DNA from: Tropicimonas isoalkanivorans
Lineage (GTDB): Bacteria > Pseudomonadota > Alphaproteobacteria > Rhodobacterales > Rhodobacteraceae
Direction of reading: 5' to 3'
NCBI RefSeq assembly: GCF_900112335.1
Contig: NZ_FOLG01000003.1
Span: forward strand, 124,001-188,000
DNA: 64,000 bases
Shown: piece after piece, positions 1,823 through 34,669 of the stretch
How positions within the stretch are numbered: the stretch's first letter is position 1
Layout: every line of letters begins with the position of its first letter
The notes under the pieces: model-generated
Database searches by the model: none
Told to the model about the DNA's origin: nothing
The model's input: only the letters and a program-made list of their open reading frames with translations
Made by a program: the position numbers and the translations under genes

Positions 1823-1900
1823 CTGCGTTTTCCTTTGATCGTCAGTGAGTTGGGGAGTTCGTCCGGTTGCGTTCCGGATCTCGCTGGTAAAGTTTTGAAA

Positions 1901-4181: not shown

Positions 4182-4507
4182 TTCCCTGACCCCGACAACG
4201 AGACGCCGCCGGGACTGACCCTGGCGCGCCGATTAACTTGGAATAGGAATATCAAGGAGAGATCTATATTTACAACTTCGACCTACGTCTGGATCAAAGT
4301 TAGCAAAATTTTTCTACCAAATGCCCGTATGGCGAGATGCATGGCATTCTCTACCCCAGATTGTTCGCGGATGGAGAAATGAGGTTTCCTGGGGAAAGCG
4401 TTGGCAAATGCCACCGACGGCGGAACAGCAGGTGCCCCATCGCGTCTCGCTCGCCTCTGACCCGGCGTCCGTCCCGGGGAGGTGCCGGGCGCGCGCCTTC
4501 GGTTCAC
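4182..4507. promoter_or_regulatory. Intergenic region with a possible minus-strand promoter
   Basis: No gene is visible in these 326 bases. The half nearest the class V gene is AT-rich against a GC-rich background. Reading the minus strand, TTGATC (4297-4292) and TGTAAA (4274-4269) are separated by 17 bases and could be a sigma-70 promoter for the gene starting at 4181, each element matching four of six consensus positions. The other half is GC-rich and carries the end of the upstream operon; no terminator with a T-run was found. Confidence 0.35.
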
Positions 4508-19827: not shown

Positions 19828-20287
19828 CTGTAGGGTGTCCTGTCTGTTGAAATGTTCGTTCGAAGGGGCCGTTTGCTTTCGGCCATGACAGGAGGTGTAC
19901 GGACCCGGCGTTTCAGAATGCGGTCAGGAACACGGGCATCGTGTATCATGTGTTTCTTTCCCACGGGCTGTGTAACTGGCTGCCAAGGGATTGCCGGAAC
20001 AGCCTGTGCATTCACATCGCCCCTTCGAGCGCTTTGCACAGGTCGAATTTCCTCCGGCTGGCGTCGAACGTCACACCGGTGCCCGGCTCCCGCGGGCGAC
20101 CTCTCGCGCCCATGGCCGAAAAAACTGAACCAGTTTGTTCAAGATCAAATCAATAAATTTGAATGTATGCTTATAAGGCCGCAGACGCAGGACTCACCTC
20201 CCCTCCGCGACAGAATGGGCACGCGTCCCCGATCGCCGACCGGAGGAAAATCGTGAGGTCTGTCTCAACGACTCCGCGGAGGACTCC
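19828..20287. promoter_or_regulatory. Divergent promoter region between OsmC-like gene and the Mrp/Nuo operon
   Basis: No gene is visible in 460 bases. An inverted repeat with six-base arms AAACTG (20122-20127) and CAGTTT (20131-20136) lies about 150 bases upstream of the mrpE-like ATG, followed by the most AT-rich stretch of the region (about 20139-20176). This is the likely promoter zone of the 13-gene operon, but I cannot assign a -35/-10 pair. A full FNR/Anr or CRP box was looked for and not found. Confidence 0.35.
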
Positions 20288-20785
20288 ATGAGCGACACGT
20301 TCGCACCCGCAAAACTCTTCGCCACGATGTTCGTTTTCTGGCTGCTGCTGAACGGCGCGCTGCAGCTGGACGTGATCGTTGTGGGTCTGCTCGTGGCCGG
20401 CGGGATCACATACTTTTTCGCAGGAAGCCTGTCCTTCCTGTCCGGCTATCGCGTCTCGGTCGCCTCGGCGAAAGCGACGGCCGGCTATCTGGCCTTCTTC
20501 TTCACCGAGCTGGTCCGCGCGAACCTCGCCATGGCCTGGTTGGTGTTGGACCCCGCTCTGCCGATGACGCCCGCCATTGTGAAAGTGCGAACCCGGTTAC
20601 AGCACCCGGTCGCCCGCCTGCTACTCGCGAACTCGATCACCCTGACCCCCGGCACGCTCTCGGTCGAGCTACGGGGCGAGTGGATCTACGTGCACTGGGT
20701 CGTGGCGCAAACGACCGACCCGGAAGCCGCGACGGAGGCCATCGTGGCCGGCTTCGAGAAATACCTGGAGGTGATGTATGACTGA
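20288..20785 (+). CDS. mrpE: Mrp-type Na+/H+ antiporter subunit E
   Basis: A 165-aa membrane protein of the MrpE/MnhE family, first gene of the 13-gene operon. GGAGGA precedes the ATG. Two or three hydrophobic helices lie in the first 65 residues, then the family-typical cytoplasmic part with NSITLTPGTLSVELRGEWIYVHWV. In Mrp antiporters MrpE is one of the small subunits needed for assembly and transport. The same subunit is found in membrane-bound hydrogenase and sulfane reductase complexes, where it belongs to the Na+ module. Its stop overlaps the next gene by eight bases. Confidence 0.9.
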   Translation: MSDTFAPAKLFATMFVFWLLLNGALQLDVIVVGLLVAGGITYFFAGSLSFLSGYRVSVASAKATAGYLAFFFTELVRANLAMAWLVLDPALPMTPAIVKVRTRLQHPVARLLLANSITLTPGTLSVELRGEWIYVHWVVAQTTDPEAATEAIVAGFEKYLEVMYD

Positions 20786-21038
20786 CACGCTTCTGCTCCC
20801 CGGCGTCATAACGGCGCTCGCGTTCGCCATGGCATTCTGGCGTTTCACCGCCGGTCCGTCCGCAGTGGACCGGGTGGTCGCGTTCGACACGCTCACCGTC
20901 ATCGCCGTCACGGGTCTGGTCATCACTGCACTCGTCTCCGGCCGCGGCATCTACCTGGACGTGGCGCTGGTCTATGCGCTGCTGTCCTTCCTCGGGGTGA
21001 TCGTGGCATCCCGCTACCTGGAAGGAGGCGACCGATGA
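20778..21038 (+). CDS. mrpF: Mrp-type antiporter subunit F
   Basis: An 86-aa, three-helix membrane protein of the MrpF/MnhF family. The characteristic GPSAVDRVVAFDTL stretch is at about residues 25-38, followed by two more helices (DVALVYALLSFLGVIVASRY). It overlaps mrpE by eight bases and mrpG by four, showing tight coupling. It is part of the cation-transport module of the complex. Confidence 0.9.
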   Translation: MTDTLLLPGVITALAFAMAFWRFTAGPSAVDRVVAFDTLTVIAVTGLVITALVSGRGIYLDVALVYALLSFLGVIVASRYLEGGDR

Positions 21039-21370
21039 TCGCCCTCACCTGGCTCGGCGTCGCGGTGATGACCGCGGGCGTCGTGTTCCTTGCGCTTGGC
21101 GGGCTGGGCCTCGTCCGGATGCCAGACACCTACACCCGCATTCAGGCCGGAACCAAGGCTACGACGCTCGGCACCATCCTGTCGCTCTTCGGTGCGGCGC
21201 TGATCATGCCTGGCTGGTCCATCAAGCTGCTGCTGATCGCGCTGTTCCTGATGTTCACGAACCCGCTGTCGTCGCAGGTCCTGGCGCGGGCGGCGCACCG
21301 GGCCGGTGTGCCCGCGACGGACAAGACAAAGGCCGACGCTTTGGCCGACGATCAGGAGGGTCTCGCATGA
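21035..21370 (+). CDS. mrpG: Mrp-type antiporter subunit G
   Basis: A 111-aa membrane protein of the MrpG/MnhG family. The signature GGLGLVRMPDTYTRIQAGTK is at about residues 26-45 and a helix-rich remainder follows, with a short hydrophilic tail. Overlaps of four bases on each side place it firmly in the operon. In related complexes MrpG packs with MrpE and MrpF on the antiporter side. Confidence 0.9.
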   Translation: MIALTWLGVAVMTAGVVFLALGGLGLVRMPDTYTRIQAGTKATTLGTILSLFGAALIMPGWSIKLLLIALFLMFTNPLSSQVLARAAHRAGVPATDKTKADALADDQEGLA

Positions 21371-21621
21371 GTACGGTGTTGCTGGGTCTGGGACTGGTCG
21401 TCGGGCTGGCAATGGTCGGCGCGGCGGCGTTGGCGCTCGTCACCCGCTCGACGGTCACGGCCGTTCTGGCGGCGGGGCTTGTCAGCCTGCTGGCATCCGT
21501 CCTCTTCGTGGTGCTGGCCGCGCCCGACGTTGCGATGACAGAGGCGGCCATCGGCTCCGGCCTCACGACCTTCCTTTTCTTCTTCGTCATGGGCCGCATT
21601 CGACGGGAGGGCGCGAAATGA
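21367..21621 (+). CDS. MbhD-like (DUF4040) membrane subunit
   Basis: An 84-aa hydrophobic protein similar to MbhD/MbxD of membrane-bound hydrogenases and to a C-terminal domain of MrpA. The recognisable part is SVLFVVLAAPDVAMTEAAIG followed by GLTTFLFFFVMGRI. In true Mrp antiporters this piece is fused within MrpA; here it is a separate gene, as in Mbh/Mbx complexes. This already separates the cluster from a plain Mrp antiporter. ATGA overlaps link it to its neighbours. Confidence 0.82.
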   Translation: MSTVLLGLGLVVGLAMVGAAALALVTRSTVTAVLAAGLVSLLASVLFVVLAAPDVAMTEAAIGSGLTTFLFFFVMGRIRREGAK

Positions 21622-22319
21622 TCCGCAATGTCCTGATCGCCGGGTTAGTCGCCCTGCTGGGGGTCGCGTTCTGGACGCTGGCCGCCGGCTATGTACCCGA
21701 TGCAGAGCTGAACCGGACCGCCGCGTACTATGCCGCCAATGCGCAGACCGATGTCGGCGCCCCCAACATCGTCACCGGCATCATCGTCACCTGGCGCGGC
21801 CTGGACACGCTGGGCGAGGTGACGGTCCTGTTCCTGACCTCCGCCATCATCGCGCTGGTGCTGGCACAGTCCAAGACACCTCCCGGTGCGTCCGGGGCCG
21901 GTTTCCTTCCCTCGGGCGAATTGCTGACGACCGGCTCCCGGATGCTGTTGCCGCTCATCACTCTGCTTGGCGCGTACGTCATCATGAACGGGCACCTGAC
22001 GCCGGGCGGCGGGTTCCAGGGGGGCGCCATACTAGCCTCCGGTGTGCTTCTGATGCTGCTCGCAGACCCGTCACACCGCTTCGCCCATTCGGTGATCGCC
22101 CGCGTGGAAAGCATATCGGGGCTGGCCTACGTGCTCGTCGGCCTCGCCGGCATGGCCCTCGCCGGGGGCTTCCTCGACAACGGCATCCTTCCGCTGGGGC
22201 GGTTCGGCGCCATGCTCTCGGCCGGCGCGATCCCCCTTATTTCGGTCCTGATCGGGCTCAAGGTCGGAGCGGAGTTCTCTTCGATCCTGGAAAGCCTCGA
22301 AGAAACGGAGGATGCGTGA
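21618..22319 (+). CDS. MbhE + MrpB-like fused membrane subunit
   Basis: A 233-aa membrane protein starting at ATG 21618, which overlaps the previous stop by four bases; a longer frame from 21306 is spurious. The first roughly 90 residues resemble MbhE (VTGIIVTWRGLDTLGEVTVL). The rest is MrpB/MnhB-like with the signature NGHLTPGGGFQGGAILASG at about residues 125-143. In Pyrococcus-type complexes these are two proteins (MbhE, MbhF). It belongs to the Na+/H+ module. Confidence 0.85.
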   Translation: MIRNVLIAGLVALLGVAFWTLAAGYVPDAELNRTAAYYAANAQTDVGAPNIVTGIIVTWRGLDTLGEVTVLFLTSAIIALVLAQSKTPPGASGAGFLPSGELLTTGSRMLLPLITLLGAYVIMNGHLTPGGGFQGGAILASGVLLMLLADPSHRFAHSVIARVESISGLAYVLVGLAGMALAGGFLDNGILPLGRFGAMLSAGAIPLISVLIGLKVGAEFSSILESLEETEDA

Positions 22320-22675
22320 TGGCCCAGATCGCCCTCGCAACCGGCTTCGTGCTGATCCTCGCAGGAATATACGGCGCCCTGACCAACCGTGACATCCTGC
22401 GGATGATCGTGGCCTTCACCATTGCCGATACCGGCGTGAACGTCGTGCTCGTCGCGGTGGGGTTCCTGCCCGGCCGCACGGCACCGATCCTCGATGCCGC
22501 CGTGCCCGTCGCGCAAGCGGCCGAGCGGATCATCGACCCCGTGCCACAGGCGTTGGTGCTCACCGCCATCGTGATCGGCCTGGGCATCACCGCGCTCATG
22601 CTCGCCTACGCCTACCGGCTGTTCCGGCTGCGCGGCAGCCTCGACATCTCGAACTTCACGGAGCTGAAATGGTAA
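22319..22675 (+). CDS. mrpC: Mrp-type antiporter subunit C (NuoK-like)
   Basis: A 118-aa three-helix protein of the MrpC/MnhC/NuoK family. ATG 22319 overlaps the previous TGA; a GTG three bases earlier is an alternative. Typical elements are GIYGALTNRDILRMIVAF in the first half and PVPQALVLTAIVIGLGITAL in the second, the stretch that packs against the MrpD/NuoN-type subunit. It overlaps the following gene by seven bases. Confidence 0.9.
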   Translation: MAQIALATGFVLILAGIYGALTNRDILRMIVAFTIADTGVNVVLVAVGFLPGRTAPILDAAVPVAQAAERIIDPVPQALVLTAIVIGLGITALMLAYAYRLFRLRGSLDISNFTELKW

Positions 22676-25600
22676 GCCCGGTCCTCATCCTCGCCATCGG
22701 CCTCGGCACCGCGTTTTCCCTCGGGCTGATGAAACCGGCCCGCACGAGGGTCCTCTTTGGTATCACGCTGACGGCACTCGGCGTCATGTCGGCAATCGCC
22801 CTCGGCTGGACGCTGGCGCTCGCAACCGGCGCGGCACAGACGGCCGAGATCCACACCGCCGGCGTCGCCCCGCCGTTTGCGATCAATTTGCGCGTTGGCC
22901 TTCCGGAGGCGGCGCTCTTATCCCTCATCACCCTCACCGGCCTCCTCGCCGCGCTCTCCATGCGCGCGGCGCTGCTGAGGCTCGGACGGGGCAGCCAGGC
23001 AGTTCTTCTGGTGCTCGTCATGGCCGTCTCGGGTCTGGTGATGACGCGGGACCTTTTCAACCTGTTTGTCTTCATCGAACTGATTGCCATTGCCACCGCT
23101 GGCCTCGTGCTGCTGTCGCAGGATGAGCGCGCCATCGGGGCGGGGTTCAAGTACCTCGTGGTCAGCCAGATCATCTCGATTCTGCTGCTGGTCGGTATTA
23201 TCTTCACCTACCACGCGACAGGCTCGCTCAATATTGACGACATCACAGTCGCCCCCGTCGCCTTCCGGGGCGCATCGCTGGCGATGTTCCTGCTGCTGAT
23301 CGCGCTGATCGTGGAATTGAAGCCGTTCCCCGCCAACGGTTGGGCGCTCGACATCTACACCTCCGCCCATCCCGGTTTCTCCGCCCTTTTCTCGGCTGCG
23401 ACCGGCAGCGCGGCGCTCTTTGTCGTCGACAAGGTCGTGGCCCCGGCCGGAACCGAATGGCTGCCGCTGTTGACCGGCATCGGCCTTTTGAGCTTCGTCG
23501 CCTCCAACATCGTCGCGCTCCGGCAGGAGAACGACCGGCGGCTGCTGGGTTACTCCTCGGTCGGGCAACTGGGGCTCATCCTCGCCGTGATCGGCCAGCG
23601 GGACGTGCTGGGCGATGCCTACCTCTATGTCGCGGGCGGCCTGATCCTGTCGCACGCGGTTGCCAAGGCCGGGCTGTTCTGGATGTCCTCCATGGTGCGT
23701 GGCCGCAAGCTGGAGGACTGGGCCGCGCTGCGGACACGGGCGCCGATGGTGCTGGCCTTTGCGACCTTCGTCGCGATGCTGGTGGGCTTGCCGCCCTTCC
23801 CCGGCTTCTATGCCAAATGGGACCTCGCCCAGGCCCTCGTCGCCGCCGGCCGCCTGCCGGTGCTGACGCTGATCCTACTCGGGGTGCTGATCGAATCCGC
23901 CTACCTCTTCCGCTGGTTCGGTTACGCCATCAAGCGTGAGGCGGCCGAGAACGGCCTTGCGTCCAATCCAGTCGATTGCGGCATCACCTTCGCCACGGTC
24001 GCGGGCGGCTGGGCACTCGGGTACCTTTGGGGCAACGGCCCGGAACAATTCAACCTTCTGGCAACGCTTCCAGCGATTACCGCCGTTGTCTTCATCCTAC
24101 TGGAACCGCTCGACGCGCGGATCAAGAACGGCCTCGCCATCGCGGCCCTGTTGGGTTGGTTCGCGATGGTGGCCGGCGACTACGACCCCATGCGACTGAT
24201 CTTCGCCGCCGTGATGATCCCGGGCGGAGCCGTGATCCTCCTCGCCTCTTTCACCGAAAAGGGTCGCAGGCTCGGCTTCTATCCCTCCGCCATGGCCATG
24301 TACGCAGGCCTCGCCCTGCTGCTCGAAGCGACGACCTTCTTCGAGTTCTTCGCGGCGTGGGAGGTCATGACGCTCGGCTCCTACTTCCTGATCCTGCGGG
24401 GCCGGATGTCCGAACCGCACGCGCTGAGCTACATACTCTTCTCGCTCGGAGGCGCCTTCGCGATCCTGACGGGCTTCGCGCTCGCCTCCGGCGGCGTGCA
24501 GCCCCACCCCATCGACGGTCTGCAGGACGTGGCGGCGGCAGACCTGGCGCCGTGGGTGTTCGTCCTGCTCGCCGCGGGGTTCCTGACCAAGACCGCCGCC
24601 ATGGGCCTGCACATCTGGCTGCCCGGCGCCCATGCCGAGGCGGAGACGGATGTCTCGCCCATGGTCTCGGGCATCCTGCTCAAGGCGGGGCTCTTCGGGC
24701 TCTTCCTGATGCTGATGCAGCTCGGACGGCAGAGCCTCTACGGCGTCGATCTGACAGTCGTGCTCGCCTACATCGGCGCGATCTCGGCCTTCCTCGGCGC
24801 GGTGCTGGCCGTCTTCCAGGAGGACGCCAAGCGTCTGCTCGCCTACAGCTCGATCAGCCAGATGGGCTATGCGCTCTTCGGAGTCGCGCTGATGAACCAC
24901 CTAGGCTGGCTGCTGGCCATGATGTTCGTCATCAACCACTACGTCTACAAGTCGATGCTCTTCCTCGCCGTGGGGGGCGTCTACAAGCGCACCCACACCA
25001 AACTGATGTACCAGATGGGCGGGTTGATCACCCTGATGCCGTTCAGCTTCGTTTCGGTACTGGTGGGGATCATCGCAATGTCGGGCGTGCCGCCGCTGTC
25101 GGGCTTTGGCGGTCGGTGGATCTTCTACAACGCGATCATGGATGCCGACCTGCGCCTGCCGCTGATCCTGATCTTCATGGCCGGGCCGGTGGGCTTCCTT
25201 TACCTCTTCCGGCTGATCCACACGATCTTCCTCGGCCAACTCAAGGACCCGCACCGAAAGCTGAAGGAAGCTCCGGTCTGGATCCTGGTCCCGCAAATGA
25301 TCTTCGTGGCCTTCCTGATCGCCTTTGCCGTTCTGCCCGGGATGGCATTGCAAAAGGTCGACGGATACATCGGCTCGATCTTCGGGGACCAACCGCTGGT
25401 CTGGCACGGCCGCGCCATCACGTCGGAGTTCGGGTACTGGAACCCAGTCGCGATCATGGCGGTGATCGTGATGGTCTTCGTGGCGGTCTTCGCAATCCTG
25501 ATCGCCAAGAACCACGACGCCCAGATGGTGAAGCAGTTCAACATCGTCTTCTCGGCCGAACGTCCCTATCGCCCGGAGACGACGCACTTCGCGTGGAACT

Positions 25601-25800
25601 TCTTCGCCCCCTATCGCAAGGCGATGGGGTTCCTTGAAACGCCAGTGGTCACGTCCTTCTGGGGCGGTGTGACGGGTGGCATCAACGGCGCGGGCGAATT
25701 CACCCGGCGCTTCTACAGCGGAAACGGCCAGACCTACGCGGCGCATGTGCTGCTGTTCGTGGTCGCCGTCTACCTGATCGCGATGGGAGGCATCGCATGA
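22669..25800 (+). CDS. Fused double MrpD/NuoN-like ion-pumping membrane subunit
   Basis: A 1043-aa membrane protein made of two antiporter-like (Proton_antipo_M) modules in one chain. Module 1 (about 1-495) has the TM5 glutamate in FNLFVFIELIAIA and a lysine in SHAVAKAGLFW, but its broken-helix region reads LKPFPANGWALDIYTSAHPG instead of the canonical WLPDA form. Module 2 (about 510-1043) is canonical: FFAAWEVMTLGSYF, TKTAAMGLHIWLPGAHAEAE, VSGILLKAGLFG and INHYVYKSMLFLAV. In complex I, Mrp and Mbh these modules are separate proteins, each one ion path. No stop or frame change separates them here, so the fusion is real in this sequence. It overlaps both neighbouring genes. Confidence 0.9.
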   Translation: MVSPVLILAIGLGTAFSLGLMKPARTRVLFGITLTALGVMSAIALGWTLALATGAAQTAEIHTAGVAPPFAINLRVGLPEAALLSLITLTGLLAALSMRAALLRLGRGSQAVLLVLVMAVSGLVMTRDLFNLFVFIELIAIATAGLVLLSQDERAIGAGFKYLVVSQIISILLLVGIIFTYHATGSLNIDDITVAPVAFRGASLAMFLLLIALIVELKPFPANGWALDIYTSAHPGFSALFSAATGSAALFVVDKVVAPAGTEWLPLLTGIGLLSFVASNIVALRQENDRRLLGYSSVGQLGLILAVIGQRDVLGDAYLYVAGGLILSHAVAKAGLFWMSSMVRGRKLEDWAALRTRAPMVLAFATFVAMLVGLPPFPGFYAKWDLAQALVAAGRLPVLTLILLGVLIESAYLFRWFGYAIKREAAENGLASNPVDCGITFATVAGGWALGYLWGNGPEQFNLLATLPAITAVVFILLEPLDARIKNGLAIAALLGWFAMVAGDYDPMRLIFAAVMIPGGAVILLASFTEKGRRLGFYPSAMAMYAGLALLLEATTFFEFFAAWEVMTLGSYFLILRGRMSEPHALSYILFSLGGAFAILTGFALASGGVQPHPIDGLQDVAAADLAPWVFVLLAAGFLTKTAAMGLHIWLPGAHAEAETDVSPMVSGILLKAGLFGLFLMLMQLGRQSLYGVDLTVVLAYIGAISAFLGAVLAVFQEDAKRLLAYSSISQMGYALFGVALMNHLGWLLAMMFVINHYVYKSMLFLAVGGVYKRTHTKLMYQMGGLITLMPFSFVSVLVGIIAMSGVPPLSGFGGRWIFYNAIMDADLRLPLILIFMAGPVGFLYLFRLIHTIFLGQLKDPHRKLKEAPVWILVPQMIFVAFLIAFAVLPGMALQKVDGYIGSIFGDQPLVWHGRAITSEFGYWNPVAIMAVIVMVFVAVFAILIAKNHDAQMVKQFNIVFSAERPYRPETTHFAWNFFAPYRKAMGFLETPVVTSFWGGVTGGINGAGEFTRRFYSGNGQTYAAHVLLFVVAVYLIAMGGIA

Positions 25801-26702
25801 CCTTCGAGTGGATACAGATCCCCTACGCGCTGCTGACGCTTTTCATCATCCTGAACTACGGGCTGCTGATGACGGCGGTGGTGCGCAAGCTTGCAGCACG
25901 GGTCGGCGGGCGGCCGGGCATACCGGTCTACCAGAACTACATCGACCTGGTGAAGAACTTTGCGCTCCGCTCGAAAATCTCGCACGGGGTCATGTACTAC
26001 CTTGGGCCTGTCTTCCGGCTGACTGGCGGCATCGGTCTCATCCTTTTCGTGCCGACGATCTATGGATCGAGTTGGGCGCAGAACTTCGCCTTCGCGGGTG
26101 ACCTGGTGCTGGCGCTCTACTTCGTCTTCTTCGGCACGCTTGGCATGGCGCTCGGTGCGGGTGAAAGTGGGCATCCGCATTCCGCTATCGGTGTCTCACG
26201 CGGCCTCAGCCAGGTGACGATGGCCGAGCTTCCGCTGGCGCTCGCGGTCTATGCCATCGCGGTGCAGTACCAGACGCTCTCGATCACCGAGATCGTCGCA
26301 GCCCAGCAAGGCGGCCTCTTCAACTGGACGCTGTTCACCAACCCGCTTGCCGTCGTCGCAGCAATGTTCGCCTTCGTCGGCACGATGATGCGCTCGCCCT
26401 TCGACGTGGTGCTGGCACCACAAGAGATCCCGATCGGCCCGCCGACGGAATACCATTCGGCCTACCTCGCGCTGATGCAGACCAACCGCGCGATCTTCCC
26501 TATCGCGAAGACGATCATCTACATGAACCTCTTCTTCGGCGGGGCGACCAGCTGGGCGGAATTCGCGATCAAGGCGTTCCTGCTGTACATGATCCCGGCC
26601 GTGATCGGCGTGGTGCACCCGCGCTTCCGGGTCGAGCAATCTATCCGCTTCTTCCTCAAATGGGGCCTGCCCGTGGGCGTGCTGGCCATCCTGACGGTGT
26701 GA
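25797..26702 (+). CDS. NuoH/MbhM-like membrane subunit
   Basis: A 301-aa membrane subunit of the NuoH (complex I subunit 1)/MbhM family, which links the redox arm to the ion-pumping arm. Characteristic cytoplasmic loops are present: GGRPGIPVYQNYIDLVK (residues about 38-55, carrying basic residues of the quinone-cavity face) and MMRSPFDVVLAPQEIPIGPP (about 200-219, with the conserved acidic residues). At least seven hydrophobic helices can be seen. It overlaps the preceding stop by four bases and marks the switch from Mrp-type to Nuo-type subunits. Confidence 0.9.
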   Translation: MTFEWIQIPYALLTLFIILNYGLLMTAVVRKLAARVGGRPGIPVYQNYIDLVKNFALRSKISHGVMYYLGPVFRLTGGIGLILFVPTIYGSSWAQNFAFAGDLVLALYFVFFGTLGMALGAGESGHPHSAIGVSRGLSQVTMAELPLALAVYAIAVQYQTLSITEIVAAQQGGLFNWTLFTNPLAVVAAMFAFVGTMMRSPFDVVLAPQEIPIGPPTEYHSAYLALMQTNRAIFPIAKTIIYMNLFFGGATSWAEFAIKAFLLYMIPAVIGVVHPRFRVEQSIRFFLKWGLPVGVLAILTV

Positions 26703-26706
26703 GACC

Positions 26707-27399
26707 ATGAAAGACGTTGACGACAAGTTCCTGAAGAACATCGAAACCGAGTTCCCCCTTCGCGAAGAGCTTCGCCCCCGCAGGGTGACCACGCCGGACG
26801 GCCAGGAGATCGAGATCGAGCCGTTGAAGGACTACTTCTGCGAAGCGGCGCCGAAGGTTCACCCCAAGGCCTACATCCCGATCGTCGAGGATTTCTACAA
26901 CTGGGCCCGGGCCAACTCGCTCTGGATCCTCGGCTTCGGCACCGGCTGCGGCGCGATCGAGATGCGGCCACTGATGACGCCGCGCTTCGACGCCTATCGC
27001 TACGGCATCCAATGGCGCCCGACGCCCCGGCAGGCGAACCTGCTGATGATCTCCGGCTACCTCTCGGTCAAGACGCTCAAGCGCGCCATCCGCGCCTACG
27101 AGCAGATGCAGGGGCCGAAATACGTGGTGGGCCTCGGCTCCTGCACGATCAACGGCGGGATGTACTGGGACAGCTACAACACCATCAAGCGGCTCGATCA
27201 GTACCTGCCCGTCGACCTCTACATCGCCGGCTGCATGCCACGCCCGGAAGCGCTGCTCGCAGGTTTCATGGAACTGAAGAAGCTGATCAAGGCAGGCAAA
27301 GGCGAAGGGGCGAACAAGTACGCCGAGAACTTCGCGACCTACAAGGCGAACCAGAAGTCCGTGATCAAGGACTGGGACATGCCGGATTACAACTGGTGA
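26707..27399 (+). CDS. NuoB/MbhJ-like iron-sulfur subunit with a missing cysteine
   Basis: A 230-aa peripheral subunit of the NuoB/hydrogenase small-subunit family, which normally carries the N2-type [4Fe-4S] cluster. Expected ligands are a tandem Cys pair plus two later Cys. Here the pair reads GTGCGAIEM, keeping C81 but with G82 in place of the second. C146 (GLGSCTING) and C176 (IAGCMPRPEA) are in place, and the only other cysteine is C45. Thus either the cluster has three Cys ligands plus another donor, or C45 helps. The N-terminal 60 residues are longer than usual and acidic. Four bases separate it from the nuoH-like gene; the stop overlaps the next start. Confidence 0.87.
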   Translation: MKDVDDKFLKNIETEFPLREELRPRRVTTPDGQEIEIEPLKDYFCEAAPKVHPKAYIPIVEDFYNWARANSLWILGFGTGCGAIEMRPLMTPRFDAYRYGIQWRPTPRQANLLMISGYLSVKTLKRAIRAYEQMQGPKYVVGLGSCTINGGMYWDSYNTIKRLDQYLPVDLYIAGCMPRPEALLAGFMELKKLIKAGKGEGANKYAENFATYKANQKSVIKDWDMPDYNW

Positions 27400-27935
27400 T
27401 GGAAATGAGACACCTTCACGCCCTTCTGAAGCAACGTCACAGCCTGGGCCAACTGGAGCCAAAGGGAGGCAAGCTCGCCTTCGTCACCGTCCCGCGAGAG
27501 AACCTGCGCGGGCTCCTGACCGAGCTGCGGGACGTCCATGGCTTCACCCATCTGGTCCTGCTGACGGCGGTGGACTGGATGGAGGACGGCCTTTTCCAGC
27601 TCACCTACATGCTCAACAACCGCGGCCGAGACATGACGCTGGGCATTCGCGTCATGCTCGACCGGCAGGAGGCGCAGGGCGACAGCATCCACGACCTCTG
27701 GCCCACGGCGGCCACTTACCAGCGCGAACTCAAGGAGATGTTCGGCATCGACTTCCCGGGCTCGCCGCGGATCGACGAGGAATTCATCCTCGAAGGCTGG
27801 ACCGACCTTCCGCCCTACCGGCGCGACTTCGACAGTCTCGCCTATTCGCAGCAGACCTACGCCGAGCGCCCGGGCCGCGTGACCCACGACCCGCGCGAAT
27901 ACATGAAATCGAAGCTCTATCCGGACGGGGTGTGA
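27399..27935 (+). CDS. NuoC-like (30 kDa) subunit
   Basis: A 178-aa peripheral subunit of the complex I 30-kDa/MbhK family. The signature YQRELKEMFGIDFPGSPRID is at about residues 106-125, and FTHLVLLTAVDW is the usual central strand. ATG 27399 overlaps the previous TGA; the ATG at 27405 is an alternative. It has no cofactor itself and bridges the NuoB- and NuoD-like proteins. A separate NuoC is typical of complex I and Mbh complexes and unlike enteric fused NuoCD. Confidence 0.87.
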   Translation: MEMRHLHALLKQRHSLGQLEPKGGKLAFVTVPRENLRGLLTELRDVHGFTHLVLLTAVDWMEDGLFQLTYMLNNRGRDMTLGIRVMLDRQEAQGDSIHDLWPTAATYQRELKEMFGIDFPGSPRIDEEFILEGWTDLPPYRRDFDSLAYSQQTYAERPGRVTHDPREYMKSKLYPDGV

Positions 27936-27936
27936 G

Positions 27937-29115
27937 ATGTTCAACTTCAAACCGGACCGCACCCAGTATCCCGCGGCGGACGCGGACGGGAAACTGGAGA
28001 TCGACCTGGAGACGGGCAAGTACCTGAAGCTGTGGCAAGGCCCGAACCACCCCGGCATCACCGGCAACATGTCGGTCGAACTGACCGTCTGTGGCGACGA
28101 GGTGGTCGAGGGCAAGACCCACGTGGGATACCTTCACCGCGGCTTCGAGAAGCTGATGGAGCGCCGGACCTTCATCCAGGTGTTTCCCATCGTCTGCCGA
28201 GTCTGCGTTCCGGAGCCTGACTTCAACGAGTACTGCTATGCCGCTGCCGTGGAGGACCTCGCCGGCATCGAGGTGCCGGAATACGCCACCTGGATGCGCA
28301 CACTGATCCTCGAAATGGGCCGTTTCAACAGCTACATGATGTTTCTGGGCGGGATCGGCGGCGCGCTTGGCCTCGGGATCACCGGCCAATGGATGACCTA
28401 CGTCCGCGACCTGATGCTCGACCGCTTCGAGGAGCTCACGGGCGCCCGGATCTACCACATGTTCATCCTGCCAGGCGGCGTGCGCGGGCACCTGCCCGAG
28501 GGGTTCGAGGCGCGGATGGAGGAGGTGTTGAGCACCGCCGAGCGCTACCTCGACGATATCGACAAGGTCATGTTCTCCAACTCGGTCTTCAAGACCCGCA
28601 CCAAGGGCGTGGGCGTGATCGATCCGAAGCTCTTCGAGCCCTACGGCGTAACCGGCCCGAACGCCCGCGCCGGCGGCGTAGCAAAGGATCTGCGGAAGGA
28701 CAGCCCCTACCTCGTCTACGACCAACTCGACTTCGAGGTGGCGACCGCGACGGACAGCGACATCTTCGCCCGCGCCACGGTGCGCCGGGGAGACGTGCAG
28801 ACCTCCATCGACCTGATCCGCCAGATCCTGCGCAAGATGCCCAAGGACGGCCCGGCGATGGCGAGAATCCCCAACGTCCTGCACTGGAAGATCCCGCGCG
28901 GCGAGACCTACATCAAGGGCGAATGCTCGCGGGGCGAATACGGCTATTACCTCGTCACCGATGGCACCGGCTATCCCCGCCGGATCAACGTGCGGGGGCC
29001 GAGTTATACCCACGCAATGGCGCTGCTGGAACACCTGATCCCGGGAACGAACATCTCGGACGTGGCCGCGCTTATGGTGTCCCTGCACACCTATCCCCCC
29101 GAGATCGAGAGGTAA
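27937..29115 (+). CDS. NuoD/[NiFe]-hydrogenase large subunit-like, Ni site not conserved
   Basis: A 392-aa homologue of complex I 49-kDa subunit and group 4 hydrogenase large subunits. GPNHPGITGNMSVEL (residues 36-50) matches the NuoD histidine loop. The L1 region reads IVCRVCVPEPDF with C87 and C90. Aligned on the hydrogenase R-x-C-x-x-C motif, C90 is the first ligand and E93 replaces the second; read as C-x-x-C, C87/C90 would be the pair. The L2 C-x-x-C is absent: the chain ends SDVAALMVSLHTYPPEIER, which resembles NuoD, and there is no C-terminal processing peptide. A NiFe centre is therefore very unlikely. The active site probably faces a quinone or other acceptor. It is one base after the NuoC-like gene. 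Confidence 0.88.
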   Translation: MFNFKPDRTQYPAADADGKLEIDLETGKYLKLWQGPNHPGITGNMSVELTVCGDEVVEGKTHVGYLHRGFEKLMERRTFIQVFPIVCRVCVPEPDFNEYCYAAAVEDLAGIEVPEYATWMRTLILEMGRFNSYMMFLGGIGGALGLGITGQWMTYVRDLMLDRFEELTGARIYHMFILPGGVRGHLPEGFEARMEEVLSTAERYLDDIDKVMFSNSVFKTRTKGVGVIDPKLFEPYGVTGPNARAGGVAKDLRKDSPYLVYDQLDFEVATATDSDIFARATVRRGDVQTSIDLIRQILRKMPKDGPAMARIPNVLHWKIPRGETYIKGECSRGEYGYYLVTDGTGYPRRINVRGPSYTHAMALLEHLIPGTNISDVAALMVSLHTYPPEIER

Positions 29116-29118
29116 GCC

Positions 29119-30915
29119 ATGGGCCTGCGCGAAGTCCTCACCCCGTTCACCGTCTGGAAGCACGTCTTCGACGAGCCGGTGACCATCAAGAACCCAATCG
29201 GCCGGCCGGCCGCCGACCGCTACCGCGGATTCCACCAGAACGACATGGCGAGCTGCATCGGTTGCGGCACCTGTGAGGCGATCTGTCAGAACGCGGCCAT
29301 CGACATGGTCCCGGTCGACGGTATCGAAACCCGAACGGGCGACTCCGGCCTGCGCCCGCAGATCGACTACGGCCGATGCTGCTGGTGCGCGCTCTGCGTC
29401 GACGTCTGCATGACCGGCTCGCTCACCATGTCGAACGAATACACCTGGGTCGACACCGACCCGGACGCCTTCCGCTTCGTGCCCGGTCTCGAAGAGCCGT
29501 GGAAGGACGATGAGGAAGGCTATGAGCGCGAGGGCAAGCGGGTGCTCTCCGGCATCGAGCGCATCCATATGGAGGAGATGCCGCCGGAGACACGAATCTC
29601 GAATTTCGAGGAGATCGTGGACGGCTACAGCCGCGCCGAGGCAATTCTGGAGGCGGATCGTTGCGTGGAATGCGGCCTCTGTGTCGCCACCTGCCCCGCG
29701 CACATGTCGATCCCCGACTACATCGCCGCCGTGCGCGATCAGGACTACGATCGGGGGCTGGAGATCCTCTACGAGACGAACCCGTTCTCGGAGGTCTGCG
29801 GTCGCGTCTGCACCCACAAGTGCGAAACATCCTGCGCCGCGCTGCACGAAGGCGACCCGATCGCCATCCGCTGGCTCAAGCGGCACATCGTGGACGAGGT
29901 GCCCTTCGACCGCAGGCTGGAGCTGATCGGCAAGCCGGCGGCGCCCACGGGCCGAAAGGTGGCGATCATTGGTGCCGGCCCCGCCGGCCTGACTGCAGCC
30001 TTCGACCTCGCCCGCGCCGGTCATGGCGTGGTGGTGTTCGAGGCGCTGTCCCACGCGGGCGGCATGATGCGCTACGGCATCCCCGAATACCGCCTGCCCT
30101 ATGAGGCGCTCGACCGCGACATCGGCGTCATCGAAGCGATGGGCGTGGAGATACGCACCAACTGCCGTGTCGGCCGCGACGTCACGATGGACGCGCTGCG
30201 CCGCGACTACGACTCGGTGATCCTCGCCATCGGTCTCAACATGGGCCGCTCGACCCGCGTGCCGGGAACCGAGGGTCCGGGCGTGGAGAAGGCAGTGGAC
30301 CTACTGCGCCGGATCACCGACGGCGAGGAGGTGCCGGTGCCCGAACGCCTCGTGGTGATCGGCGGCGGTAACGTGGCGATGGACATCGCCCGCTCGATGG
30401 CGCGTCTTCAGATGCAGAAATACGGGCGTGTCGGCGTCACCCTGACCGCGTTGGAGGACATCGACCATTTCCTGGCGGACCGCGAGGAGATCGTCGAAAG
30501 CCGCGAGGAAGGCGTGCAGATTTTCGACGCCCGCGGCCCGCAGGAGGTGGTCCGCGACGAGAGCGGGGCTGTCACCGGTCTACGGACGTGGCGGGTGAAG
30601 TCCATCTTCGACGCCGACGGGCGGTTCGCCCCCGCTTATGACGAGGGCGACGAACAGATTCACGAAGGTACGATGGTGATCGAAGCCATCGGCCAGATGG
30701 CCGACACGTCGCTCCTGGAGGAAGCGCTGACCGAAGCGCTGGAATGGAACCGGGGACGCATCCGCATTGATGGCGCCTTCCGAACGTCCGAACCTTGGCT
30801 GTTTGCCGCGGGCGACGCCGTGAAAGGACCCGACGTGATCAACGCCGTTGCGGACGGACACCGGGTTGCGCGGACGGTCATGGATGAACTCGCAGCACGG
30901 GAGGTGATGCAATGA
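29119..30915 (+). CDS. NuoI-type diferredoxin fused to GltD/NfnB-type NAD(P)H flavoprotein
   Basis: A 598-aa fusion. Residues 40-105 hold two [4Fe-4S] motifs, C46-x2-C49-x2-C52-x3-C56 and C87-x2-C90-x2-C93-x3-C97 (with an extra C88), like NuoI/MbhN. From about 175 a GltD-like enzyme follows: a cysteine-rich N-domain (C182, C185, C188, C192; then C227, C231, C235, C239), FAD motif GAGPAGL (285-291) and NAD(P) motif IGGGNVAMD (414-422), ending with LFAAGDAVKGPD. GltD/NfnB/SudA proteins pass electrons between NAD(P)H and Fe-S clusters. The fusion offers an electron-input module in place of NuoEFG. It lies three bases after the NuoD-like gene and overlaps the next by four. Confidence 0.88.
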   Translation: MGLREVLTPFTVWKHVFDEPVTIKNPIGRPAADRYRGFHQNDMASCIGCGTCEAICQNAAIDMVPVDGIETRTGDSGLRPQIDYGRCCWCALCVDVCMTGSLTMSNEYTWVDTDPDAFRFVPGLEEPWKDDEEGYEREGKRVLSGIERIHMEEMPPETRISNFEEIVDGYSRAEAILEADRCVECGLCVATCPAHMSIPDYIAAVRDQDYDRGLEILYETNPFSEVCGRVCTHKCETSCAALHEGDPIAIRWLKRHIVDEVPFDRRLELIGKPAAPTGRKVAIIGAGPAGLTAAFDLARAGHGVVVFEALSHAGGMMRYGIPEYRLPYEALDRDIGVIEAMGVEIRTNCRVGRDVTMDALRRDYDSVILAIGLNMGRSTRVPGTEGPGVEKAVDLLRRITDGEEVPVPERLVVIGGGNVAMDIARSMARLQMQKYGRVGVTLTALEDIDHFLADREEIVESREEGVQIFDARGPQEVVRDESGAVTGLRTWRVKSIFDADGRFAPAYDEGDEQIHEGTMVIEAIGQMADTSLLEEALTEALEWNRGRIRIDGAFRTSEPWLFAAGDAVKGPDVINAVADGHRVARTVMDELAAREVMQ

Positions 30916-31406
30916 GCGAGATGAACAAGGCGAAACTGTCGGGAAAGACGACGATCCGGGAGATCTTCGAGACCGCGACCGAATTCGAGAAAGTTGCCCA
31001 CCGGTTCTACACCGCCCTCATTCCCAACGTTTCCAAGGACATCCGCTGGCTCGTTGAGGAACTGGCCGAAGAAGAGCTTGAGCACGTGGACCTGTTCACC
31101 AAACTTGCCAAGGACCCGGCCGTCGAGGCCGTCATGGTAGCGGAAATCGCCCGCCCCGTGGCCGATGGCAAGTTCTCGGACTGCGTTCAAACGCCGGATC
31201 TTGGTCCGAACCCCGACGACCAGGCGGTTCTGCAGTATGCTCTGATGCGGGAGAGCGCGGCGATGGACCAGTATACCGAACTGGCCGAGAGCACGCCGGT
31301 CGGCCCGCTGAAGGATGCGTTCGTCTTCCTCGCGAACGAAGAAACCAAGCACAAGGCGGAGCTCGAAAAAATCTACTACGAGGTCGTTCACTCTGGCGGC
31401 GTCTGA
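30912..31406 (+). CDS. Rubrerythrin-like di-iron protein
   Basis: A 164-aa ferritin-like four-helix protein. Two iron-type motifs are visible: EELAEEELEHVDLF (E55, H58) and LANEETKHKAELE (E144, H147), plus helix glutamates such as E27 and E114. It lacks the rubredoxin [Fe-Cys4] domain of classical rubrerythrin and lacks a signal peptide, so it is a cytoplasmic erythrin. Such proteins reduce peroxide or store iron and need an electron donor. The ATGA overlap with the flavoprotein gene places it in the operon, so it may take electrons from that flavoprotein or protect the Fe-S complex. It is the last of the thirteen coupled genes. Confidence 0.82.
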   Translation: MSEMNKAKLSGKTTIREIFETATEFEKVAHRFYTALIPNVSKDIRWLVEELAEEELEHVDLFTKLAKDPAVEAVMVAEIARPVADGKFSDCVQTPDLGPNPDDQAVLQYALMRESAAMDQYTELAESTPVGPLKDAFVFLANEETKHKAELEKIYYEVVHSGGV

Positions 31407-31828
31407 CGCCGGCCCGAAGCAACCTGAGCTTTCCAAAATAAGCAACTGAAGGGTCGACAGATCCGCCGGGCGATACGCAAGTCGTGGACTGCGCGGCGGG
31501 GGTCCCGGCCGGGGATGAGACCTTTGCCCTACCCGTTGGCAGAAGCTGGCAAGGCCCCCGGCCGGAACCGCACCCGTTTGGCAGCCATCGCCTCGCGGAT
31601 GCCGGCAAATCCAATGCAACTTTTAAAAAAATTCGTGCGCTGGTTGATCCATCTCATGTCGTGGCCGCCGCAAAGGTGGGACACACAGCTTCGTGAATGC
31701 ACTAAATCGAATGTTTGAAGGAGTGAGGGAACTGCACATCGGCCAATCCTGAAGACAACACACGAAATCGCATCGGGGTCCTCCAACCTCATGTCTTGTT
31801 GGTCCTGGTGCACCAGAGGTGACAGACC
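31407..31828. promoter_or_regulatory. Intergenic region upstream of the FadL-type porin gene
   Basis: No gene is visible in 422 bases. An AT-rich patch with T and A runs is at about 31617-31635. A GGCGTC/GACGCC inverted repeat spans the rubrerythrin stop codon but has no T-run. The porin gene probably has its own promoter here; no clear -35/-10 pair was found. Confidence 0.35.
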
Positions 31829-33115
31829 ATGTACAAGAGACCACGCCACGGCAATGCCGCCCGAACCACTGCGGTACTCTGCCTGGCCGGCCTGGGCGCA
31901 ACGCCGGCCCTGGCGACGAACGGGTACTTCGCGAACGGATTCGACACGATATCCAAGGGGATGGCCGGAGCCGGCGTCGCGATGGATGGCGGCGTGATGG
32001 GCATTGCGACCAACCCCGCGCTCGGCACCCAGGTCGGGAACGAAGCCGCATTCTGCCTGACCTACTTCAGTCCCGACCGCAGTTTCGACATCGGAGAGGA
32101 CCCCACAGGGTTTCTTGTGCCGGGCAAGGAGACCAGCAGCAACAAAAGCTTCGTGATCCCCTGCGGCGGCGCGAACTTCATGCTGAACGATCGGAGTTCG
32201 CTCGGCTTCGTGGTCGTCGGCAACGGCGGCATGAACACCGAATACGACGGCAATCCCTTTGCCGGCATTGGCCAATTCTACGGGACCGGTGCCAAGACGC
32301 CCTATGGCGTGAACCTCGAGCAACTGTTCATCGGGCTGAACTACGCCTACGAGGTGAACCCGCAGCTTTCGGTCGGTATCGCGCCGATCTATGCCGTGCA
32401 GCGGTTCAGCGCCACGGGGCTCCAGCCCTTCACGCTGTTCTCGACCGATCCCGGCAACGTGACCGACAACGATGACTCCTGGTCACGCGGCTGGGGCTAC
32501 AACCTCGGCGTGCACATCACGCCGAATGCACAATGGTCCATCGGCGCGGCCTATCGGTCCCGAATCTATATGAGCGAGTTCGACCGCTACTCCGGGCTGT
32601 TCGCCGAACAGGGTGATTTCGACATACCCGCCACCGCGGTCATCGGTGCAGCGTTCACGCCTGCCAGCGCCCCCCGTTGGACGATCACGGGCGAATACCA
32701 ACGGATCTTTTATGGCGACATCAACGCTATCGCCAACAGCGGGTCCGAGATCACACCCACCCTCGGGGACGATGACGGACCGGGATTCGGCTGGAAGGAC
32801 ATGGATATCGTCCGCCTCGCGGCCAATTACGAGGCGACGGATCAGTGGACGATCCGAGGCGGCGTGAGTCATGCCACCGAATTCATCGACGATGACCAGG
32901 TGCTGTTCAACACTCTCGCCCCGGCGACCCCGCAATGGCATGCGTCGATCGGGGCGACCTACGATATCAACAGCAACTGGTCGGTCAGCGGCTCCTACAC
33001 CCACGCGTTCGATAATGACGTGTCGGGCAGGAACAAGACGCCGTCGCTGACCAACCCGGTCACGCTCGATATGTACCAGAACGAGCTGTCGCTCGCGATG
33101 AGCTACAAGTGGTGA
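31829..33115 (+). CDS. OmpP1/FadL-family outer membrane porin
   Basis: A 428-aa outer-membrane beta-barrel of the FadL/TodX family, which lets hydrophobic compounds such as long-chain fatty acids or hydrocarbons cross the outer membrane. The Sec signal runs to about residue 29 (ALA-TNGYF). The mature N-terminus TNGYFANGFDTISKGMAGAG forms the family's hatch region with its NPA-like TNPALG loop. Strands end with a C-terminal aromatic residue (SYKW), as Bam substrates do. GAGGTG precedes the ATG at 31829. It is followed by a strong terminator. It is transcribed in the same direction as the Mrp/Nuo operon but separated by 422 bases, so it may be a separate unit. Confidence 0.88.
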   Translation: MYKRPRHGNAARTTAVLCLAGLGATPALATNGYFANGFDTISKGMAGAGVAMDGGVMGIATNPALGTQVGNEAAFCLTYFSPDRSFDIGEDPTGFLVPGKETSSNKSFVIPCGGANFMLNDRSSLGFVVVGNGGMNTEYDGNPFAGIGQFYGTGAKTPYGVNLEQLFIGLNYAYEVNPQLSVGIAPIYAVQRFSATGLQPFTLFSTDPGNVTDNDDSWSRGWGYNLGVHITPNAQWSIGAAYRSRIYMSEFDRYSGLFAEQGDFDIPATAVIGAAFTPASAPRWTITGEYQRIFYGDINAIANSGSEITPTLGDDDGPGFGWKDMDIVRLAANYEATDQWTIRGGVSHATEFIDDDQVLFNTLAPATPQWHASIGATYDINSNWSVSGSYTHAFDNDVSGRNKTPSLTNPVTLDMYQNELSLAMSYKW

Positions 33116-33152
33116 ACCGGCTCCGGTATCGTCGGCGCGTATAGGCAGATGA

Positions 33153-33179
33153 CCCGGGCGGCCAGGCCGTCCGGGTTTT
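33153..33179 (+). terminator. Rho-independent terminator after the porin gene
   Basis: Eleven-base arms at 33153-33163 (CCCGGGCGGCC) and 33165-33175 (GGCCGTCCGGG, one G-U pair) are followed by TTTT at 33176-33179. The tip will open by a few bases. It lies 38 bases after the porin stop codon. Confidence 0.8.
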
Positions 33180-33307
33180 CCGTCGTTTCGGTCAGAACCC
33201 GCCCACGCAATGGCTCGGCATCTTGTCGCCCCAATCCCGCCAAGTTGCCGACGCGGTTCTGAAGAAGAGGTTACCCCGGGGGCACGACAACATTCCTGGA
33301 CGAGAGC

Positions 33308-34669
33308 ATGTCGGACCCACTTGCGAGCCTCCTACGCGGGATCATCCTCGATCCTGGCCTTCAGAAAAGCATTTCAGACGCCAAAATCGCCAAGGGCGTG
33401 CGCGCCGCCGAGACCCTGAACGCCGTCCTGCTGGATGCGATCGAGGAATCCGGAGTCAACAAGGACGGTCTGCTGACCGCCCGCGATATGGCCACGATCT
33501 CCACGACGGTCTACGGCGACCCCGCCCAGTACGTGAAATTCCTCGAAGCGCACGGCAACGACAACGGCGACGTGGTGTCCGGCTTTCACCACGTTCAGGG
33601 CGACGGCGGCACGCTTGTTTTCAAGGGTCGCAACTTCATCGATACCGTGGCCGACGCGATCTACCACTACGGCTTCAAGGTCAAGGACGGGCGCTACGTG
33701 AACGAAGACGGCGCAGCCAACGAAACGACCAAGGATGTCGCAGGCTGGCTGAACTATTTTCTGAACGGCGAGAACGTCGTCTTCGGCGGCGGCCGTGCCG
33801 ACCAACTCGGGACGGGCGAGTACTCCAAGCCGTTCCGCGACGCCAATAACGAGACCTACTATGCCGGCGGCGGCGACGACAAGATTTGGGCCGGCCAGGG
33901 CCGGGACAAGATCTATGGCCAGGCGGGCGACGACACATCTGGCGGAGGTGACGGCAACGACCGGATGTGGGGCGGCGCAGGCGCCGACCACTTCGGTGGA
34001 GATGCCGGAAGGGACCGGATCTGGGGCGGGGAAGGCAAGGACACTCTCTCCGGCGGGGACGGCGCGGACATGTTGGACGGTGGCGAGGGTGCCGACTATC
34101 TGAACGGCGGGGCCGGCGATGACACGTTGTACGGAGGCGCCAACGCGGACGCCATGTACGGCAGCGACGGGGCCGACCGGATGGACGGTGGAGCTGGCGC
34201 CGATCGGATGGACGGCGGAGCCGGCGGCGATCGCATCTCAGGCGGCAAGGGAGATGACGAACTGAGCGGCAGCGATGGCTTCGACCGCCTTTTCGGCAAC
34301 GCCGGGGACGATACGCTCACCGCAGGTGCCGGAAGGGACCGGCTGATCGGCGGCACCGGCAGGGACGTTTTCAAGCTTTGGGAAAGCAAACAGGCGACCG
34401 ATACTCTCGTGTTCAACCCGGGCGACTCCACGCATCGCAGTGATGGCATCGATCTTGTCGAAGGCTTTAATGTCGACAACGACAAGATCGACCTGAGCGG
34501 CTTCGGCGACATTGTATTCAAGAAGATCGATTTTGCCGGTCATGGCCAAGCATCGGCCTATTACGATGGCACCTATCTTCGGATCGACGAAAACGGCGAC
34601 CGGGCGGTCGACATGATGATCGAGTTCACCAACGTCAACGACTTGAGCGGGGACAACTTCATTCTGTGA
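33308..34669 (+). CDS. RTX calcium-binding repeat protein with a conserved N-terminal domain
   Basis: A 453-aa protein. Residues about 1-160 form a non-repeat domain (DGLLTARDMATISTTVYGDP, HGNDNGDVVSGFHHVQGDGG, ADAIYHYGFKVKDGRYVNED). I recall similar stretches from alphaproteobacterial peroxidase-type RTX proteins, but this has no heme-peroxidase core. Residues about 175-360 are GGxGxDxLxGG nonapeptides that bind Ca2+, and the rest resembles a serralysin-type C-terminal domain ending LSGDNFIL. There is no Sec signal, as expected for type I secretion with a C-terminal signal. No ABC/HlyD/TolC secretion set is nearby. Probably a secreted or surface protein; activity unknown. Confidence 0.82.
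   Translation: MSDPLASLLRGIILDPGLQKSISDAKIAKGVRAAETLNAVLLDAIEESGVNKDGLLTARDMATISTTVYGDPAQYVKFLEAHGNDNGDVVSGFHHVQGDGGTLVFKGRNFIDTVADAIYHYGFKVKDGRYVNEDGAANETTKDVAGWLNYFLNGENVVFGGGRADQLGTGEYSKPFRDANNETYYAGGGDDKIWAGQGRDKIYGQAGDDTSGGGDGNDRMWGGAGADHFGGDAGRDRIWGGEGKDTLSGGDGADMLDGGEGADYLNGGAGDDTLYGGANADAMYGSDGADRMDGGAGADRMDGGAGGDRISGGKGDDELSGSDGFDRLFGNAGDDTLTAGAGRDRLIGGTGRDVFKLWESKQATDTLVFNPGDSTHRSDGIDLVEGFNVDNDKIDLSGFGDIVFKKIDFAGHGQASAYYDGTYLRIDENGDRAVDMMIEFTNVNDLSGDNFIL

Follow-up and report, generated by a model that had tools for sequence, protein, structure and literature searches.

The system described here is an operon in the alphaproteobacterium Tropicimonas isoalkanivorans, within a 64,000-nucleotide stretch of contig NZ_FOLG01000003.1 (positions 124,001–188,000; hereafter the window, whose own coordinates are used unless otherwise stated). 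The operon consists of 13 co-directional, plus-strand open reading frames (ORFs) at 20288–31406. Nine of the 12 gene junctions overlap, by 1–8 bases, and the remaining three are separated by 4 (nuoH/nuoB), 1 (nuoC/nuoD) and 3 bases (nuoD/gltD). The MbhE-MrpB gene starts at an ATG (21618) within a longer mechanical ORF, and nuoC starts at 27399. Pfam and NCBIfam profile matches agree with the subunit names along the operon (Table 1). ORFs and profile matches together bear out an initial annotation, made from the sequence alone, of 13 genes overlapping or lying 1–4 bases apart. That annotation's description of the product as a candidate ion pump of the Ehr class stands: an Mrp-linked redox core of NuoBCDH type that lacks an intact [NiFe] site and bears a pyridine-nucleotide module of GltD type. 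NuoEFG are, as it reported, not among the 13 genes (profile scans of the operon proteins). Its statement that full-length MrpA is absent is misleading: the MrpA antiporter part forms the second half of a fused gene.

Table 1. Features of the operon and its upstream region (window coordinates).
Feature	Position	Strand	Evidence
FNR/Crp-type dyad TTGTT-N4-ATCAA, candidate oxygen-responsive promoter site	20135..20148		9/10 consensus bases
MbsA/MrpE-like subunit	20288..20785	+	PF01899 (MNHE) E 8e-36
MbsB/MrpF-like subunit	20778..21038	+	PF04066 (MrpF) E 4.5e-17
MbsC/MrpG-like subunit	21035..21370	+	PF03334 (MnhG); NF009314 over cut-off
MbsD/MbhD-like subunit	21367..21621	+	PF13244 (MbhD) E 1.3e-17; AMTEAAI in 56/56
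MbsE-like subunit, MbhE and MrpB fused	21618..22319	+	PF20501 (MbhE) and PF04039 (MnhB)
MbsG/MrpC-like subunit	22316..22675	+	PF00420 (Oxidored_q2)
Fused antiporter, 1043 aa: MbsH-like N half, MbsH'-like C half	22669..25800	+	two PF00361 (Proton_antipo_M) stretches
MbsM/NuoH-like membrane anchor	25797..26702	+	NADHdh; 6u8y_M 9.7e-38
MbsJ/NuoB-like subunit, predicted three-Cys proximal [4Fe-4S]	26707..27399	+	Oxidored_q6; 6u8y_J 1.7e-60
MbsK/NuoC-like subunit	27399..27935	+	PF00329 (Complex1_30kDa)
MbsL/NuoD-like subunit without Ni-Fe or quinone residues	27937..29115	+	Complex1_49kDa; 6u8y_L 2.6e-92
MbsN/NuoI-like ferredoxin domain and Nfn/GltD-type FAD protein, 598 aa	29119..30915	+	Fer4_20/Pyr_redox_2; NF010590
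Rubrerythrin-like protein, 164 aa, diiron ligand pattern	30912..31406	+	PF02915 (Rubrerythrin)

Relatives were collected by a genome_contigs scan with the NuoD-like protein, and the best 80 of 165 (73–96% identity) were analysed. The complete 12-gene order from mrpE to the GltD fusion is found on one strand in 56 of these 80 loci; a further 23 are contiguous but begin less than 200 bases from a contig end. Because the order recurs in this way, the operon is confirmed as genuine rather than a chance arrangement. The sole true exception is L062, from a Thiorhodovibrio metagenome-assembled genome (MAG): nuoB to gltD and the rubrerythrin gene are kept, while nuoH and the mrp genes are not recognisable in the 4.4 kb upstream (1–4434, no Ns), and the operon may be split or rearranged there. 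Against three relatives, the 13 genes show nonsynonymous divergence (dN) of 0.025–0.314 and synonymous divergence (dS) of 0.49–1.99, with the higher dS values near saturation. All 80 relatives are Proteobacteria or MAGs without a phylum name, and they include Rhodobacteraceae, Magnetospirillum, Magnetovibrio, Magnetococcales, Rhodocyclaceae, Gallionellaceae, Rhodoferax, Thiothrix and purple sulfur bacteria. The label "alphaproteobacterial" given to the complex in the initial annotation was thus too narrow: the same operon occurs in alpha-, beta- and gammaproteobacteria and in Magnetococcales.

Comparison with solved structures places the encoded complex close to the membrane-bound sulfane reductase (MBS) of Pyrococcus furiosus (6u8y). 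The comparison covered the L, J, M, H, H' and N equivalents (five proteins), and MBS was the best match for all six. For the NuoD-like protein, MBS scores 2.6e-92, Thermus Nqo4 6.9e-63 and the membrane-bound hydrogenase (MBH) 5.2e-38; the NuoB-like protein matches 6u8y_J at 1.7e-60. The NuoH-like protein matches 6u8y_M at 9.7e-38, with formate hydrogenlyase (FHL) as runner-up at 5.8e-12, and the two antiporter halves match chains X (3.2e-49) and H (1.2e-35). Among NuoI-type chains, 6u8y_N comes first for the NuoI-like domain at 9.2e-22, the next match being 6.1e-11. In a 29-row tree of NuoD-like proteins, the single MbsL joins the window clade of 24 rows with 99/99 support; three complex I sequences and HycE of E. 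coli fall outside this group. A second, stronger NuoD-family match (PF00346) in the same genome, on contig C15, is taken to be its canonical complex I. The full MBS subunit set (A, B, C, D, E, G, H, H', M, J, K, L and N) is present, with H and H' fused and N fused to GltD. The published MBS subunit table corresponds one to one with the operon apart from these two fusions; it also describes MbsE of P. furiosus as the same MbhE-MrpB fusion and MbsH' as holding the MrpA part (PMC8415708). The operon complex is therefore almost certainly of MBS/MBX-type kinship within the Ehr group, a narrower and better fitting assignment than the Ehr class as a whole.

The residues of the active site argue in the same direction. 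In MBS, three Cys ligands hold the proximal cluster, whose open iron cleaves polysulfide S-S bonds; C25 is dispensable, and the enzyme lacks both the Nqo4 H38/Y87 quinone residues and the hydrogenase glutamate MbhL E21 (PMC7684303). In the operon family, 78 loci have a NuoB-like protein; three-Cys motifs equivalent to C28/C93/C123 are present in 74 of them, the remaining four being truncated, and the C25 equivalent is Gly. We predict from these motifs that the proximal [4Fe-4S] cluster is ligated by three Cys, as in MBS. The NuoB-type site of complex I has two adjacent cysteines, of which the operon protein has just one, and Thr and Val stand at the positions of Nqo4 H38 and Y87; the motifs spanning these positions, GP[NQ]HPGITGN and R[IV]CVPEPD, occur in 80/80 loci. 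The L1/L2 CxxC set of Ni-Fe ligands is not kept either. Only one Cys of four remains (C85, within R[IV]CVPEPD, 80/80), which sets the complex apart from group 4 [NiFe] hydrogenases (MBH, Ech, FHL) with their four Ni-Fe cysteines.

Electrons probably enter through the NuoI-GltD fusion, which has a flavin adenine dinucleotide (FAD) domain of Nfn/GltD type and four complete 4-Cys sets. These sets do not vary in an alignment of 29 rows, made up of the window sequence and 28 from the 80 relatives. In NfnB, the extra phosphate of NADP is bound through two conserved arginines (PMC6405883). We equate this pair with a YRR motif, which is present in all five printed homologue alignments and in 0/74 readable relatives. 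The replacement is A[LM]E in 69 of these 74 loci, CLE in three and an Arg-Lys pair in two (the motif in L011 and L015 was read by eye). Because the NADP arginine pair has given way to an acidic motif, NADH is the predicted pyridine nucleotide for most members, which narrows the NAD(P)H input of the initial annotation to probable NADH. A flavin-side Arg, R187 of T. maritima NfnB (GIPEFRLP), is matched in 71 of 80 relatives, with five short and four unmatched. Profile scans detected no NfnA-type partner among the operon genes, so no bifurcation is claimed; of the two features of the bifurcating transhydrogenase Nfn that were looked for, neither the arginine pair nor the partner was found. The fusion scores 866 bits against NF010590, below the 946-bit cut-off, and its structural model has a mean predicted local distance difference test (pLDDT) value of 67.8, with values below 50 across nearly all of the first 147 residues. 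Elsewhere in the genome, a separate GltD-type protein (504-residue frame) adjoins a POR_N-type 2-oxoacid:ferredoxin oxidoreductase gene (C36:28629–30005 and 30917–31510), and the two are a candidate ferredoxin:NADP pair.

The rubrerythrin-like gene is found in 67 of 80 loci: directly downstream in 65, and upstream of mrpE in two (L073, L078). Eight of the 13 loci without a match end within 424 bases; L032 and L082 have room for the gene and give no match, while L045, L047 and L050 carry a different rubrerythrin-like protein (~151 residues) in the same slot. These last three, whose NAD motif is CLE, are possibly a separate subfamily. The diiron ligands are well kept over 65 aligned rows (E26 60, E55 64, H58 65, E114 63, E144 65, H147 64). 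The AF2 model of the protein has a pLDDT of 88.8, its fold matches are weak and ferritin-like only, and structure comparison found no close solved relative. Clustering of 578 flanking ORFs revealed no other widely shared neighbour family, the remaining clusters spanning at most four loci each, and gene context therefore gives no substrate. Downstream in the window, 31829–34669 encodes an outer membrane protein of FadL/TodX type and a protein with RTX repeats; neither is conserved beside the operon elsewhere.

The operon is rare and patchy. An NF010590 match above 800 bits was obtained in only 5 of 397 Pseudomonadota genomes, a count that may miss some since, in most genomes, scoring was confined to the top three candidates of a first look; one control genome exceeded the NF010590 cut-off. 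The N-terminal part of the NuoI-GltD protein was found at 65% identity or more in 3 of 246 genomes of the window's own family (sampled at about one genome per genus), and the one further genome from the genus of the window, G403, gave no match in the same search. Plasmid carriage was considered and rejected: all 246 matching plasmid records fall below 60% identity (~33–36% in the 30 listed). On the operon contig, the only plasmid-type sign is a weak, 54-residue RepA match (E 8.8e-4).

Carriers of the operon mostly have sulfur-oxidation genes: SoxB exceeds its cut-off in 33 of the 36 distinct carriers surveyed, versus 73 of 397 genomes in the phylum sample; most carriers were found by similarity search and hence form no random sample (G642, whose matches coincide with G089, and L004 were left out). 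A comparison within Rhodobacteraceae set 12 carriers against 36 non-carriers, about one per genus and not a matched sample; the 12 include four Celeribacter genomes as well as the window genome with two close kin, such that p-values overstate independence. RuBisCO above 400 bits—a bar that we set to drop RuBisCO-like proteins—was found in 10/12 carriers versus 6/36 non-carriers (p 5.9e-5), and over the Pfam cut-off in 10/12 versus 15/36. Several markers were rejected: (i) anaerobic ribonucleotide reductase (0/12 vs 0/36), (ii) NosZ (7/12 vs 14/36, including two and one below cut-off; p 0.32), and (iii) NifH and Rnf (2/12 vs 0/36 each, p 0.059, too few to use). NifH, RnfC and NosZ are all encoded on the operon's own 379-kb contig (contig coordinates 26623–27447, 53896–55188 and 235564–237435). 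Among the 12 Rhodobacteraceae carriers, only the window genome and R. aestuarii (G632) have both NifH and RnfC over cut-off.

Upstream regions were scored for dyads against the FNR consensus. Dyads with at least 8/10 consensus bases occur in 28 of 57 upstream regions, compared with 9.3 expected (first-order Markov), and a coding control gave 8 of 79; the loci are related, and these counts are not independent. The window dyad lies 139 bases before mrpE in a block conserved in six aligned rhodobacterial loci, including the window. Anoxic control of the operon is likely, judging from these sites.

We propose, with a probability of about 0.5, that the operon product is an ion-translocating NADH:sulfane oxidoreductase of MBS/MBX type with its own NADH module. 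Since the core falls in the MBS/MBX branch, sulfane or polysulfide sulfur becomes a specific candidate for the acceptor that the initial annotation had left unnamed. NADH would reduce the FAD of the Nfn/GltD-type half, and electrons would pass through two [4Fe-4S] clusters in that half and two in the MbsN/NuoI-like half to the three-Cys proximal cluster of the MbsJ-like subunit. The open iron of this cluster would exchange electrons with sulfane sulfur (polysulfide, or persulfide/disulfide), in a chamber that the MbsL- and MbsM-like subunits help to form. The redox reaction would be coupled to H+/Na+ movement via the MbsH-MbsH' fusion and the rest of the Mrp arm. In the forward direction, zero-valent sulfur would serve under anoxia as a sink for electrons from NADH. 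The rubrerythrin-like protein may shield the open cluster, which is sensitive to oxygen. The interpretation offered by the initial annotation is thus partly supported. The sequences themselves show the gene content, the homology, the conserved residues and the distribution; NADH as donor, the sulfane substrate, the ion, coupling and direction of the complex, and the role of the diiron protein, we infer, as that annotation did for the function.

Several observations weigh against this proposal. Firstly, the tree contains very long branches (with a program warning) and only one archaeal MBS. Secondly, P. furiosus MbsL, the one species in which this is seen, retains two of the four Ni-Fe cysteines (C85 and C385), whereas the position of C385 is Tyr here in 79 of 80 loci (one unread); we treat this loss as a variant rather than an exclusion because mutating both C85 and C385 is described as leaving MBS activity comparable (PMC7684303). 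Thirdly, antiporter residues have changed in 60 aligned fused proteins (the window and 59 relatives longer than 950 residues). The MbsH half keeps equivalents of E138, E219 (57 E, 3 D) and K393, but K250 is replaced by T/A/S/G and H330 by L/I/V, both in 60/60; the MbsH' half keeps E128, K217 (59/60, one X) and K248, but H336 is F in 59/60 and K399 is Arg in 60/60 (the H330 and K393 equivalences come from motif reading, the others from 6u8y alignments). Pumping may consequently differ family-wide; the changes could mean fewer or differently routed protons, which would suit a small redox span. Fourthly, L009 and L060 carry the Arg-Lys pair instead of the acidic motif, possibly a switch to NADPH. 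Moreover, no sulfur gene was found as a conserved neighbour among the flanking ORFs of the relatives, and the SoxB link is weak within Rhodobacteraceae (12/12 vs 26/36, p 0.048). Finally, there is the energetics. The standard potentials of NADH (about -320 mV) and polysulfide (about -260 to -275 mV) leave little forward free energy, and on these values the forward reaction yields little for pumping several ions.

The same potentials make operation near equilibrium or in reverse plausible: across so small a redox span, an ion gradient could drive NAD+ reduction from reduced sulfur. That the complex works mainly in this way, with ion influx via the Mrp arm lifting electrons from reduced sulfur, by way of the open [4Fe-4S] cluster, to NAD+, is a tentative possibility. 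If true, it would provide a quinone-independent, uphill NADH route for CO2 fixation in sulfur-oxidising, and possibly iron-oxidising, Proteobacteria.

A different input is conceivable, in which ferredoxin from a 2-oxoacid oxidoreductase feeds the MbsN/GltD clusters and the complex is an ion-pumping ferredoxin (+/- NAD+) oxidoreductase replacing Rnf. POR_N is enriched in Rhodobacteraceae carriers (over cut-off in 11/12 vs 4/36, Fisher p 6.5e-7), Rnf exceeds its cut-off in just 2/12 of them, the 71 loci noted above retain the Nfn-type Arg beside flavin N5, and MBS itself takes its electrons from ferredoxin (PMC7684303). Outside Rhodobacteraceae, however, POR_N (24/24 carriers, 6/6 non-carriers) and RnfC (23/24, 5/6) discriminate nothing because they are common to both groups; the association, drawn from unmatched samples, may reflect lifestyle. 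Fusion to a pyridine-nucleotide flavoprotein favours NAD-linked input, and we regard the ferredoxin-fed complex as rather unlikely. A quinone-reducing alternative complex I, passing electrons from NADH to ubiquinone or menaquinone with Na+/H+ pumping, could draw on the overall NuoBCDH homology and on the report that the MBS chamber is about as large as the one in complex I (PMC7684303). The Thr and Val at the H38/Y87 positions, in motifs common to all loci, and the missing second NuoB-type cysteine make it unlikely. Highly improbable is an Mrp-type antiporter that is non-redox or a relic and whose redox subunits are vestigial: although several antiporter residues are changed and distribution is patchy, the cluster cysteines of the GltD fusion are all invariant, the redox genes have low dN relative to dS, nearly all loci that lack the full order lie at contig ends, and L062 keeps the redox genes with the membrane genes not beside them.

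The characterised MBS is an archaeal, ferredoxin-fed complex I relative; here we describe an apparently NADH-wired relative in Proteobacteria. Its carriers include named isolates (Celeribacter, Tropicimonas, Magnetospirillum and purple sulfur bacteria), most of those examined having SoxB. If the proposed NADH:sulfane activity is real, models of sulfur lithotrophy and of sulfur metabolism in the dark would gain an NADH-sulfur coupling site. The family also offers a bacterial system for the genetics of stepwise Ni-Fe cysteine loss between hydrogenase and complex I. We found no description of a GltD-fused MBX in Proteobacteria in the literature covered, outside which most subscription papers fall, and one may exist.

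Among known systems, Ehr complexes are reported from Nitrospirales, with function given as unknown (PMC12342949), and from lineages sibling to Cyanobacteria (PMC6349859). The sulfur-oxidising Riftia symbiont Endoriftia carries a complex named putative Mrp-Mbx, which shares first neighbours with reverse tricarboxylic acid cycle genes in co-expression, and whose function and direction its authors state as unknown (PMC11636981). MBX of Thermotoga maritima is a bacterial, 13-subunit MBS homologue whose mbxA is upregulated by S0 and thiosulfate (PMC9431562). Its host differs in being a hyperthermophilic anaerobe. A GltD-type gene may be part of that operon too. NfnB/NfnL and GltD flavoproteins share FAD, two [4Fe-4S] clusters and the Nfn-type Arg by the flavin (PMC6405883); the operon protein differs in its mostly acidic A[LM]E in place of the NADP arginine pair, and in its fusion to a NuoI-like domain. 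Respiratory complex I shares NuoB, C, D, H and I homologues and pyridine-nucleotide input, but the operon has MBS-type active-site residues and an Mrp distal arm, and no NuoEFG. The closest likeness is to P. furiosus MBS: the subunit set, the MbsE-type fusion and the three-Cys proximal cluster are the same, and quinone and Ni-Fe residues are lost in both. The operon complex differs from MBS in being bacterial, in joining MbsH and MbsH' in one protein and MbsN to an Nfn/GltD flavoprotein, in its extra diiron gene, and in the Tyr at C385, the loss of the K250, H330 and H336 equivalents and the Arg at K399.

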